Positions 38,693 to 44,021 of a DNA stretch of 44,021 nucleotides are shown piece by piece. A model generated the notes under the pieces. The model saw only the letters and a list, made by a program, of their open reading frames with translations, was not told where the DNA came from and ran no database searches. Both the position numbers and the translations under genes were made by a program. Source of the DNA: Oscillospiraceae bacterium (GTDB lineage Bacteria; Bacillota; Clostridia; Oscillospirales; WRJC01); assembly GCA_009777355.1 (NCBI GenBank), contig WRMA01000005.1:1-44021 (forward strand). The letters are read 5' to 3'. How positions within the stretch are numbered: the first letter of the stretch is position 1; the number at the start of each line of letters is the position of its first letter.

Positions 38693-38992
38693 TTAAAATA
38701 TCTCCTTCTGTATAATAATTTAAAAATATAAATATAAATTTATATTAGATTCTATCACAAAATTTTTAAATTGTCAAATATTTTTTTGTAAACAATAAAA
38801 AATTATAAAAATCACAAAAATTATTTAAGAAGATAAAGAAATATTTACGGCCGCCGTTTCACGGCAACTATTTTGTTTTTTCTGCATATACTATAATTAT
38901 ACGCTATAAAATTATAATATGCGGCAGTCGGAAAAAACGTTAAAATATTTAAATTTATAAGCGCATTGCCGAATATAGGGGGAATTTTTTTC

Positions 38993-39196
38993 ATGTTACT
39001 TGAAACGGTCGCCGCGGTAATTATAAACTGCACTTATTTGTTTTTAAAAGTCTCGTCAAACGGGGAGTTTCCCTCGCCGTTGAGTTCGGCGAAAGAGAGG
39101 GAGCATTTTTTAAGATATAAAGACGGCGACATTGAATCAAGAAATATATTGATTGAGCGGAATTTAAGACTTGTCGCGCACATTGTTAAAGCATAG
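38993..39196 (+). pseudogene. sigK: 5' (N-terminal) fragment of pro-sigma-K, interrupted after LVAHIVK
   Basis: ATG at 38993 with RBS aggggg: MLLETVAAVIINCTYLFLKVSSNGEFPSPLSSAKEREHFLRYKDGDIESRNILIERNLRLVAHIVKA*; sigma-K-like sequence ending abruptly before region 2.2; followed by a large serine recombinase. Confidence 0.85.
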
Positions 39197-39331
39197 TGAT
39201 TAAAAAACATAGTTGAAAAATGGCGTAAAACCGCCGTTTTACACGGTTTGTATAGTTTTTTGAGGAATATTAAAACCCTTGTTTAAATAAGTATTTTACT
39301 AAATACTTTTAACTTTATAGGGGGCTAAAAT

Positions 39332-39529
39332 TTGAGCGGAGAAAAAATAATAATATCAGAAGAATTACAAAAAGAGATGTTAGAATTTTTTTTAAAGACT
39401 TCTATTCCGAGAAAGAAAAAACTAAAAGCAGAACAAGAAAAAGCTCGTTTACTGTCTGAAATTGAAAATCAAAATTCAGATAGGAGTGTTGAAAATGGCA
39501 GTAAAAACGGGAATATATGTAAGAGTTAG
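39332..39529 (+). CDS. Small charged protein overlapping the recombinase start
   Basis: TTG start with RBS aggggg; 65 aa; overlaps the recombinase ORF by 35 nt. Confidence 0.5.
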   Translation: MSGEKIIISEELQKEMLEFFLKTSIPRKKKLKAEQEKARLLSEIENQNSDRSVENGSKNGNICKS

Positions 39530-40976
39530 TACAGAGGAACAAGCCCAAGAGGGATATTCAATAAGAGGGCAGACAGAAAAATTAAAATCGTATTCGCTAC
39601 TCAAAGACTGGATAATTCACGGCATTTACTCTGATGAGGGTATTTCTGGTAAAAATATTGTAGAGCGACCTGCAATCAACAGATTAATTCAAGATATTAA
39701 ATCAGGTAAAGTAAATAATGTTCTTGTTTTCAAAGTTGACAGATTAACAAGAAGTACAAAAAATTTAATTGAACTTGTTGAATTGTTTGATAAATATAAC
39801 TGTACTTTTAATTCTCTTACAGAAAGCATAGACACAGAAACACCGTCAGGACGTATGTTTTTAAAGATTATCGGCATATTCGCAGAGTTTGAACGTGAGA
39901 ATTTAGTCAGCAGATTAAAATTAGGGTTTGAGAGAAAAGCTAAAGAGGGTTACAGTTTAGCGAGTTTCGGGGCAAGTTTCGGCTATGATTTAAAAAAAGG
40001 TGAAAAGATACAGACTATAAATCAATCAGAGGCAAAAATCGTCAGAGAAATTTTCGATTTATATGTAAATCAAAATATATCAATGACAAAAATAACGGAG
40101 ATGTTAAATAACAGAAAAATAAAGCCGAAAAGAAAGGGTGAAAAATGGAGCGGAACTTCTGTAAGAAATATTTTACTAAATCCAAATTATATTGGTAAAA
40201 TTCGTTACTCAACACAGGATAAAGACCGTTATTTTGAAACAGACGGACATCATGAGCCTATTATTGAAAATAAAGTTTTTGAGTTGGCGCAGGAAAAGCT
40301 GATTAAAAATAATGCAAGATACAATAAGAAAGCTCCTGACGAAAATAATTATTTCTGCGGATTTCTATATTGTGAAAAGTGCGGAAGTACATACACGACA
40401 CATCATAGCTCGCAGATTTTAAAAAACGGCGAAAAAAAAGAATATACTTCGTATAAATGTAACGGGATAAAATATAAAGACTGCGTAACGCCTCAAATAA
40501 TCAGGGAAAAAATGAATTTTTTATTTGAAGATTATATTAAAAACACAAATATAAATGATTTTGATAATCTTAAATTAAATGCTGATAATAATAATCATGA
40601 TTTATTAAATTATATTGCAGAATGTGAAAATAAACTGAAATCATACGAAAAAAAGAAAAAACGTCTTATGGAACGGTTTATAGCAGAGGAAATAGAATTT
40701 GATAATTATAAACAGTTAATTGAAATGATTGACAGTCAATATGCAGATTTAGAAAATGAATTTATAAAAGTTAAATCTGAAATTAACGCAGAAACAAATC
40801 CTGTTATTTCAAGAGAAGATATAATTTTAAATTTAAAAGAAAACTGGCAGTATTTAGACAGTAAAGAACGAATGATTTTTCTACAGCGGTTTGTTAAAAA
40901 GATTGTGATTAACGGAGAGAAAACAAAAGATAAAAATATATTAAGTATAAAATCAGTTGAATTTAATTCTAAATAA
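39495..40976 (+). CDS. Large serine recombinase (SpoIVCA-like site-specific recombinase)
   Basis: GIYVRVSTEEQAQEGYSIRGQTEKL, VLVFKVDRLTRSTKNLIELVELF, recombinase domain GEKWSGTSVRNILLNPNYIGKIRY, zinc ribbon CEKCGSTY...YKCNG, coiled-coil; ATG 39495 with AGGAG RBS preferred over the 39462 start in the track. Confidence 0.93.
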   Translation: MAVKTGIYVRVSTEEQAQEGYSIRGQTEKLKSYSLLKDWIIHGIYSDEGISGKNIVERPAINRLIQDIKSGKVNNVLVFKVDRLTRSTKNLIELVELFDKYNCTFNSLTESIDTETPSGRMFLKIIGIFAEFERENLVSRLKLGFERKAKEGYSLASFGASFGYDLKKGEKIQTINQSEAKIVREIFDLYVNQNISMTKITEMLNNRKIKPKRKGEKWSGTSVRNILLNPNYIGKIRYSTQDKDRYFETDGHHEPIIENKVFELAQEKLIKNNARYNKKAPDENNYFCGFLYCEKCGSTYTTHHSSQILKNGEKKEYTSYKCNGIKYKDCVTPQIIREKMNFLFEDYIKNTNINDFDNLKLNADNNNHDLLNYIAECENKLKSYEKKKKRLMERFIAEEIEFDNYKQLIEMIDSQYADLENEFIKVKSEINAETNPVISREDIILNLKENWQYLDSKERMIFLQRFVKKIVINGEKTKDKNILSIKSVEFNSK

Positions 40977-40992
40977 TTATGATTTAAAAAAG

Positions 40993-41031
40993 CAGAGAAA
41001 AGTTAGATAATTTAAACTTTTCTCTGTTTTT
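40993..41031 (+). terminator. Intrinsic terminator after the large serine recombinase
   Basis: cagagaaaagtt agataattta aacttttctctg ttttt. Confidence 0.8.
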
Positions 41032-41045
41032 CAAAAGGAGTTGAG

Positions 41046-41327
41046 ATGATTATAAACACACCAGAAATAACAGATATTGATACAGTAATAAGTATATATT
41101 ACCGTTATCCAGAAATAGGTACAAAACAAATTGAGCAGATTTTCAGTAAACGCTCAAAAGCTACTGTCAGCAGACTTAAAAAATCGGCAAAAAAACAAAT
41201 GGCAGAAGATAATATTTATACTTATGGCATGTATAAAATAAATACAGAATGTGCGTATAAGGTATGGGGTATTGATGTTTTAGATTTAGAAAGGCGAAGA
41301 AATAAATTACAGAAATTAGGGTTATAA
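41046..41327 (+). CDS. Small HTH-like protein of unknown function in the mobile element
   Basis: RBS aaggag; YPEIGTKQIEQIFSKRSKATVSRLKKSAKKQ helix-turn-helix-like segment. Confidence 0.55.
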   Translation: MIINTPEITDIDTVISIYYRYPEIGTKQIEQIFSKRSKATVSRLKKSAKKQMAEDNIYTYGMYKINTECAYKVWGIDVLDLERRRNKLQKLGL

Positions 41328-41341
41328 AAAAATACAGCAGA

Positions 41342-41402
41342 GGTCTTGTTTTGAATTAAGTTTATATGATATATTACAAATATATAATTCAAGTGCAAGC
41401 CT
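41342..41402. repeat. Imperfect ~60-bp dyad upstream of the tyrosine recombinase
   Basis: ggtcttgttttgaatta...taattcaagtgcaagcc; right half recurs inverted at 42830-42851. Confidence 0.6.
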
Positions 41403-41423
41403 CTATAAAAGGAGGTTTGAAAA

Positions 41424-42564
41424 ATGCCGATATACAGGGCGAAAAATGCCAAAAAAGAGGGCTTGCAAAAATATTATGTGCGTGTAAATTATGTTTCAGA
41501 CAGCGGAGAGTATAAACAAATCACTCGTACAGCTTATGGAATTGATGTTGCAAAAGATTTAGAACGCAGGTTAGAGTATGAAATCAAAGAGCAACAAAAA
41601 ACATCTATACATAAAATGACAGTTCAACAGTTATATGAGGAATATATTTCAGTAAAAAAATATGAGGTCAGAGGAACAACTATCAATAAAACAGAAAAAA
41701 CTTTTAAAAAACATATATTGCCGATTATTAAGAAAATTAAAATTGATAAATTATCTGTTTCAGTATTGCAAGAATGGAAAATATCTATTGAAGAAAAAAA
41801 TTTAGCATTAGCAACAAAGAAAGGTTTATATTCAGAATTAAGGACAATGCTAAATTATGCGGTAAGAATGGACTATATTCCCAAACATAATTTGTCAAAA
41901 GTACGGAAATTTTAAAGATACTATGGCTATCAAAAGAGAAATGAAATTTTACACACCTGAAGAATTCAGAAAGTACATTGATATTGCGAGAAAAATCGCA
42001 TTAGAAGAACAGGAGAAGAACAAAAATCTCTATGAATGGAATTATTATGTGTTCTTTAATATTGCATTTTACACAGGATTAAGAAAAGGCGAAATACACG
42101 CTTTACGTTGGAGTGATATTGACAATAATTATTTAAGTGTTAAACGCAGTATAACGCAAAAGCTACATAAAACATATATTGAAACTCCACCTAAAAACAG
42201 GTCGTCTATGAGGACAATTCAAATTCCGTTACCGCTTATTAAGATATTAAATGAACATAAAGAAAGGCAGAAATTTTTAGGATATTTGAGCGAAGATAAC
42301 AGGGTTTTAGGTGATGAAAAATGTATAAGAGATGGTGTCATTGACAAAAGAAACAATCTTTATTCTTCATTAGCAGGGGTAAAACGAATACGAATACATG
42401 ATTTCAGACATTCTCACGCTTCATTACTTGCTAATATGGGTATAAACATTCAAGAAGTGGCTCGAAGATTAGGACACGCAAGAGTTGAAATGACATGGAA
42501 TACTTATTCCCATTTATACCCAAGAGAAGAAGAAAAGGCGATTGCAGTATTAAATGCAGTATGA
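41424..42564 (+). pseudogene. Tyrosine recombinase/integrase split by an apparent 1-nt frameshift
   Basis: ORF 41424-41915 (arm/SAM-like N-terminal) and 41923-42564 (catalytic: TGLRKGEIHALRW, HDFRHSHASLLANMG, RRLGHARVEMTWNTYSHLY). Deleting c at ~41904 restores SKVGNFKDTMAIKREMKFYTPEEF. Confidence 0.85.
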
Positions 42565-42571
42565 AAAATCG

Positions 42572-42594
42572 TACACGAATTTTACACGAATAAA
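42572..42594 (+). repeat. Integrase arm-type repeat copy 1
   Basis: tacacgaattttacacgaataaa; 21/23 identical to 42788-42810. Confidence 0.7.
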
Positions 42595-42787
42595 GTATAA
42601 TTCACTTAAATATGATTGAAATCTAAAAATGAAATTACAGGCTGAAACGATATAAAACAGGGTAGTTATGAGGATTATTTAAACCAAAATGAAACCGTTT
42701 GAAATGCTAAAAATGATTGGGTAGGAACGACCTAATTTTTTATAAAATCGTTTAAAACAGTATATTACAGAGATTAAAAATCAATCA

Positions 42788-42810
42788 TACACGAATTATA
42801 CACGAATAAG
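42788..42810 (+). repeat. Integrase arm-type repeat copy 2
   Basis: tacacgaattatacacgaataag. Confidence 0.7.
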
Positions 42811-42829
42811 AAATTTTAAAATATTAATG

Positions 42830-42851
42830 GGCTTGCATTTTGAATTATATA
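42830..42851 (-). repeat. Inverted copy of the sequence at 41381-41402
   Basis: ggcttgcattttgaattatata versus reverse complement of 41381-41402 (aggcttgcacttgaattatata). Confidence 0.65.
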
Positions 42852-42872
42852 ATTGAATAGTAAAAAAATATC

Positions 42873-42916
42873 AAGGTCAGTTTTGAAAATAAAATTTCTA
42901 AAACCGACCTTTTTTA
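42873..42916 (+). terminator. Intrinsic terminator-like hairpin
   Basis: aaggtcagtttt gaaaataaaatttct aaaaccgacctttttt. Confidence 0.6.
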
Positions 42917-43057
42917 TTGCGGAAATTTAAATCCGATAAAATTTTATCTGAAACAAAATATTCCCTCAAAAAGATATAAAAACAGTCAGCCATACAGAAA
43001 ATATGCCGTGTTTTTTATTATGTGGTTATTTCTATAATTTTATTTTAATAGAATTAA

Positions 43058-43709
<652 letters not shown>

Positions 43710-43711
<2 letters not shown>

Positions 43712-43739
43712 CTCCGTAAATGTACACATTTACGGAGTT
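43710..43739. repeat. Palindromic site 1, candidate invertase crossover site (also terminator-like)
   Basis: AACTCCGTAAATGT-AC-ACATTTACGGAGTT, perfect 14-bp arms around the dinucleotide AC. Confidence 0.7.
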
Positions 43740-43753
43740 GTTTTTATAAGAAA

Positions 43754-43782
43754 ATGTTAATTCAAAAAAGTGTTTTTGTCAA
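43754..43782 (-). promoter_or_regulatory. Minus-strand promoter inside the putative invertible segment: TTGACA-N17-TAACAT
   Basis: TGTCAA at 43777-43782 and ATGTTA at 43754-43759 on the plus strand, 17 bp apart. Confidence 0.6.
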
Positions 43783-43864
43783 CAGTTTTCGCAAAAATTA
43801 ATCGGAATTTAAATATAAATTAACAAAATTTTCTTTTTTAGGCTGTAAACTTAGTTAAAACAGG

Positions 43865-43896
43865 CTATTTCGTAAATGTGTACATTTGCGAAGTAG
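43865..43896. repeat. Palindromic site 2, candidate invertase crossover site in inverted orientation
   Basis: CTATTTCGTAAATGT-GT-ACATTTGCGAAGTAG; 17-bp CGTAAATGTGTACATTT is the exact reverse complement of 43718-43734. Confidence 0.7.
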
Positions 43897-43935
43897 TACA
43901 TTGAAAAATATAAAATTTATAAAAAGAGGTACTTT

Positions 43936-44021
43936 ATGAAACGGAAATTTACAAAGAGATTTATCAGTTTTATTTTGACAGTTGTTATGTTAATGACTTT
44001 AATTCCTTTAGCAAGTACAAC
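43936..44021 (+). CDS. Secreted protein, N-terminus only (runs off window)
   Basis: RBS aaagagg; MKRKFTKRFISFILTVVMLMTLIPLAST... signal peptide. Confidence 0.7.
   Translation, partial: MKRKFTKRFISFILTVVMLMTLIPLAST

Follow-up and report, generated by a model that had tools for sequence, protein, structure and literature searches.

The window analysed here is a whole contig (C5, 44021 bp) of the metagenome assembly G000 of an Oscillospiraceae bacterium (2.01 Mb, 143 contigs, 90.9% complete). Close to its right end, the first 66 codons of sigK, the gene for pro-sigma-K, are followed on the same strand by a mobile element that encodes a large serine recombinase (LSR), and the remainder of the gene does not follow within the contig. 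The locus comprises the following features, among which the small open reading frame (ORF) and the LSR gene overlap:

38900..38992, + strand: region upstream of sigK, conserved in the genus with similar sequence 5' of sigK in two related genomes, G001 and G002 (GCATATA...TATAAAATTATAATATG); probable sigK promoter region
38993..39190, + strand: sigK 5' piece, codons 1-66; the ORF extends to a TAG ending at 39196
39188..39190, + strand: predicted crossover core AAA, where sigK identity ends, with the element starting at 39191; AAA and a similar left arm recur at the dpaB junction of G001, and the core length is inferred
39191..39331, + strand: element left arm, containing an inverted repeat (39218-39249)
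39332..39529, + strand: small ORF of 65 amino acids (aa), conserved 5' of LSRs of this family
39495..40976, + strand: LSR, 493 aa (PF00239, 3e-38; PF07508, 3e-23; PF13408, 1e-5)
40977..44021, + strand: remaining AT-rich contig (GC 25-34%), probably element DNA; the contig ends at 44021

In a profile search, the ORF at 38993-39196 matched positions 4-66 of TIGR02846 (E 2.3e-16) and also the SigK model PRK05803 (E 6e-16). An identity as SigE was rejected, since the SigE model gave a weaker match (9e-8). The piece shares 85% identity with SigK residues 1-66 of G002, a genome of the same genus, in agreement with the pro-sigma-K start recognized in a preliminary description of the window. Identity to sigK stops at base 39190 (AAA, Lys66), after which come GCA and TAG, so that the protein ends ...HIVK|A-stop. 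That description had also reported this early stop where SigK should continue, a large serine recombinase about 300 bp further on the same strand, a shift to AT-rich composition, and the lack of a sigK 3' fragment in the window. All of these hold: the LSR start codon at 39495 lies 299 bp past the stop, GC is 41-50% between 37.6 and 38.8 kb but 25-34% beyond about 38.8 kb, and the 5' piece is the sole sigK match in the window. The LSR adjoining it, a feature shared with skin-type elements, carries Resolvase, Recombinase and Zn ribbon domains.

The nearest relatives, G001 and G002, are metagenome genomes labelled Oscillospiraceae, which we take from their isolate names to originate from termite guts. 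In the sigK of both, codon 66 is uninterrupted (HIVKKYYTTYK), which provides the empty site. A relative of the window element, with an LSR 56% identical, splits dpaB (dipicolinate synthase B) in G001, where the two halves lie 8.8 kb apart on one contig and rejoin in frame at TTT; the whole dpaB of G000 is the empty site for that element. Read in LSR orientation, the left junctions of dpaB (AAAGCTCCGTTAATAAAAAAC) and of the window (AAAGCATAGTGATTAAAAAAC) agree at 15 of 21 bases, which puts the window core on, or adjacent to, AAA (39188-39190). With the core at AAA, excision is predicted from the sequence to restore HIVK|KYY. As a separate observation, dpaB of G002 was found in at least three pieces (L314 5420-5560, L315 1393-1605, L316 6178-6507), every one of them near an LSR gene.

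That an LSR element interrupts sigK, as put forward from the window, is thus well supported by comparison with related genomes and loci. An assembly chimera fusing sigK to an unrelated element might be suspected in a metagenome assembly with a GC step near the junction. This is very improbable, as the break falls at AAA and its left arm junction resembles the dpaB insertion of the same family, independent assemblies show this LSR family adjoining sigK at codon 84, and another genome, G073, also has sigK split at codon 66.

A set of 29 genomes was searched with a SigK hidden Markov model (HMM) and read together with their junction sequences. All were chosen for carrying the window's LSR family, so the frequency of split sigK among them is no survey of clostridia. 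Breaks were found near codons 21, 60, 66, 84, 112 and 128, and G001, G002 and G055 have sigK split at codon 212. About codon 144, the gene is broken in several IMG/VR prophages and in a contig of IMG/VR sample 3300006045 (L317) with a closely related sigK. In total, sigK has been entered at about eight sites. Where both sides are known, the pieces rejoin in frame at short shared words:

Site 66: G073, both sigK halves found, AAGAA
Site 84: G065, in frame, ACA
Site 112: G054, G055, G059 and G070, AATG or AAATG
Site 128: G074, GACC
Site 212: G001, ATGT; G002, 11 bp; G055, 16 bp

Rejoining in frame carries little weight on its own, and the words are the best of 128-350 candidate fusions, which makes the exact base uncertain for the shortest cores. 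A search for the longest shared word at the junctions was uninformative save at site 212. Several genes hold more than one element, namely those of G055 (sites 112 and 212), G078 (84 and 112), G065 (21, 84 and 112) and G074 (66, 112 and 128), with some element ends of G078, G065 and G074 read from one side only. Multi-element sigK loci are seen at L281 and L279 (G065), L274 and L275 (G074), and L300 and L301 (G055). Two SigK 5' pieces (L287 in G062, L289 in G059) open, from in-frame ATG codons, with a charged N-terminus and not a hydrophobic pro-sequence. An 8.2 kb contig of G079 (L283, C69) starts and stops within sigK (codons 103/105), which would be compatible with a circular molecule; G079 was left out as ambiguous.

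The insertion at codon 212 bears on whether a split sigK is still in use. In G001 the gene (L058, C8, 1245-5904) carries an LSR element of about 4 kb at codon 211/212, and its counterpart in G002 spans L059 2281-2967 and L298 4629-4691. Decay of the two SigK C-termini was considered and rejected on the element junctions and on the sigK tails of about 20 residues that follow immediately on the LSR stop codon in each genome. The two LSRs are 78% identical over 242 aa and their left ends are homologous; the insertion probably predates the split between G001 and G002. Over sigK codons 1-211, the two genomes show a nonsynonymous divergence (dN) of 0.05 against a synonymous divergence (dS) of 2.0. 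The probable age of the insertion, combined with the low dN, indicates that strong selection has acted on the interrupted gene, which would be expected of a gene put back together on demand. In the window itself, the 66 codons differ from those of G002 by 50 nucleotides and change 10 residues, where 32 would be expected under random substitution, a figure that taken alone is also compatible with a recent insertion.

Loci with the small ORF and an LSR of the window's family are common in these gut clostridia, and in most of them tblastn places the small ORF directly 5' of the LSR. At the LSR-proximal end, members of the family adjoin sigK in G065 and G078 (codon 84) and other spore genes: dpaB (G001), dpaA (L111) and genes of sleC-like cortex-lytic enzymes (L092, L097). 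A gene for a collagen-repeat protein is a further target (L153). A tree built from 21 LSRs unites the window LSR with the dpaA, dpaB and sleC-like copies (support 86/91), and this group joins the site-84 and feoB copies at 100/100. LSR clades mostly track insertion site, in that the LSRs of sites 212, 128 and 84 and 6 of the 7 site-112 LSRs each cluster. The site-112 clade stands apart from the window LSR in this tree, which does not include SpoIVCA, and the site-66 LSR of G073 is only distantly related to it. Phage and plasmid collections yielded distant LSRs only (<60% identity).

By analogy with skin, we consider it likely that the LSR element sits in sigK as a precisely excisable insertion. 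This reading draws on the SigK 5' piece with an LSR behind it, the empty codon-66 site in the congeners, the similar left arm of the dpaB element in G001, the in-frame rejoining of the split dpaB of G001 and of the G065 sigK pieces, the insertions of the same LSR family in codon-84 sigK, dpaA, dpaB and sleC-like genes, the strong selection on sigK of G001 and G002 despite the codon-212 insertion, the codon-66 split of G073 with both halves present, and the spore genes kept in G000. The element would have been integrated by its own LSR at codon 66/67 through crossover within a short core sequence that is probably AAA, leaving the 66-codon piece behind; the 3' piece would lie on the far side of the element, off the assembled contig. 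The LSR and a directionality factor would excise the element in the mother cell, as happens with skin, and rejoin ...HIVK|KYY... in frame, so that the 5' piece end ...CACATTGTTAAA would run directly into the KKYY codons. By its size and position, the 65-aa ORF is a candidate for this factor, and read-through from the sigK promoter into the co-directional small ORF and LSR may possibly occur.

Two points weigh against such an excisable element. The family has also entered non-spore genes, including feoB (in a Ruminococcus group and on contig C9 of G000) and several others, and the sigK 3' part and the right end of the element are absent from the assembly. The first of these would suit a plain mobile element that landed in sigK by chance, excisable in principle and free of developmental control, perhaps one that this strain acquired recently and that blocks sporulation. 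The congeners lacking the codon-66 element and the low residue change in the 66 codons are compatible with this. We regard it as unlikely, because the nearest LSRs are mostly found in spore genes (dpaA, dpaB, sleC-like), the family enters sigK at a second site as well, and the sigK of congeners retains other elements while under selection.

The absence of the 3' part raises another alternative, in which sigK is irreversibly broken, its 3' part deleted and the lineage losing late sporulation. Searches of the G000 assembly for the middle and tail of sigK with SigK and sigma-70 HMMs, the protein of a relative, a tail peptide and a degenerate DNA pattern returned paralogues only, and a search of IMG/VR with the sigK 3' part found nothing. 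An intact sigK elsewhere in the genome, which the preliminary description had named as evidence against an interrupted gene, was looked for across the assembly, and HMM and protein searches detected neither an intact nor a second copy in this 90.9%-complete sequence. As about 9% of the genome is missing and the contig breaks off inside a mobile element, the absence of the 3' part is weak evidence of its loss. Conservation extends over the 5' piece and the region upstream of it, and sigE and sigG (assigned from translations), spoIVA and an intact dpaB are all kept in G000. Irreversible loss is accordingly improbable, and an excisable element remains our preferred reading. A more tentative extension, plausible but short of an even chance, is that sigK of this genus is multiply interrupted by at least two independent elements (at codon 66 in G000, 212 in the congeners and about 144 in the termite contig with a closely related sigK). 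Each would have to be excised before sigma-K could be made, forming a serial DNA lock on late sporulation, and sigK of G000 would lie in at least three pieces.

The break at codon 66 differs from the classical site, as had been suggested, since the skin element of Bacillus subtilis sits near sigK codon 112. The two systems share a split sigK, an LSR-encoding element beside the 5' piece (SpoIVCA in skin) and excision that restores the gene, which for the window is a prediction. They differ in the core, which is AATGA in skin (PMC10745906) and probably AAA at codon 66 in the window. The site itself is not new, because Island IV of Bacillus cereus bv. anthracis, a 22 kb element excised late in sporulation and with no phage genes reported, occupies sigK nt 195 (PMC10745906), within one codon of the window break if the N-termini align without gaps. 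Its recombinase opposes the sigK 5' piece, whereas the window LSR is co-directional with it, and the host is different. The skin-Cd element of Clostridioides difficile likewise combines a clostridial sigK with an LSR element, encoding the recombinase CD1231 and the small directionality factor CD1234 (PMC5025042) of 53 aa (PMC10747680), but its LSR lies directly 5' of the sigK 3' piece and its insertion site is another. LSR elements in other spore genes include vfbin in spoVFB of B. weihenstephanensis and the non-phage element gin in gerE of B. cereus, the latter with a 42-aa directionality factor (PMC10747680, PMC5595907); spoVFB (dpaB) is also the gene split by the window's family in G001. 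It is established that LSR elements are excised from spore genes, among them sigK, spoVFB and gerE (PMC5025042, PMC5595907, PMC10747680). The window system is set apart by an LSR lineage separate from most site-112 elements, by an LSR read in the same direction as the 5' piece, and by a host group with many insertion sites.

Programmed excision from spore genes has so far been known from few Bacillus and Clostridium strains, and skin elements in clostridia were called an exception in 2016 (PMC5025042). In the literature searched, where coverage of subscription journals was thin, no account came to light of a single sigK with two or more elements, nor of the extent seen here, with about eight sites, LSR clades mostly by site, and some genes holding two or three elements. 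In uncultured gut clostridia, sigK has been entered by several recombinase lineages, which suggests that some bacteria must splice out several DNA elements before finishing a spore. Two questions thereby become testable: what draws such elements to late mother-cell genes, and whether excision in series acts as a timing device. A sigma-K scored as absent from a metagenome assembly may be merely split.

Further recombinase genes were observed downstream of the LSR. A tyrosine integrase reads across two ORFs (41424-41915 and 41923-42564) and is apparently a broken gene, and a second, small serine recombinase of the resolvase/invertase type lies close to the contig end (43082-43711). The preliminary estimate of an element larger than 4.8 kb would hold only if all DNA up to the contig end at 44021 belongs to one element. 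Elsewhere in G000, three more copies or fragments of the window's LSR family occur, each at or near a contig end (C9:35322-36794, C23:3-392 and C50:252-578), and the copy on C9 adjoins a feoB fragment.
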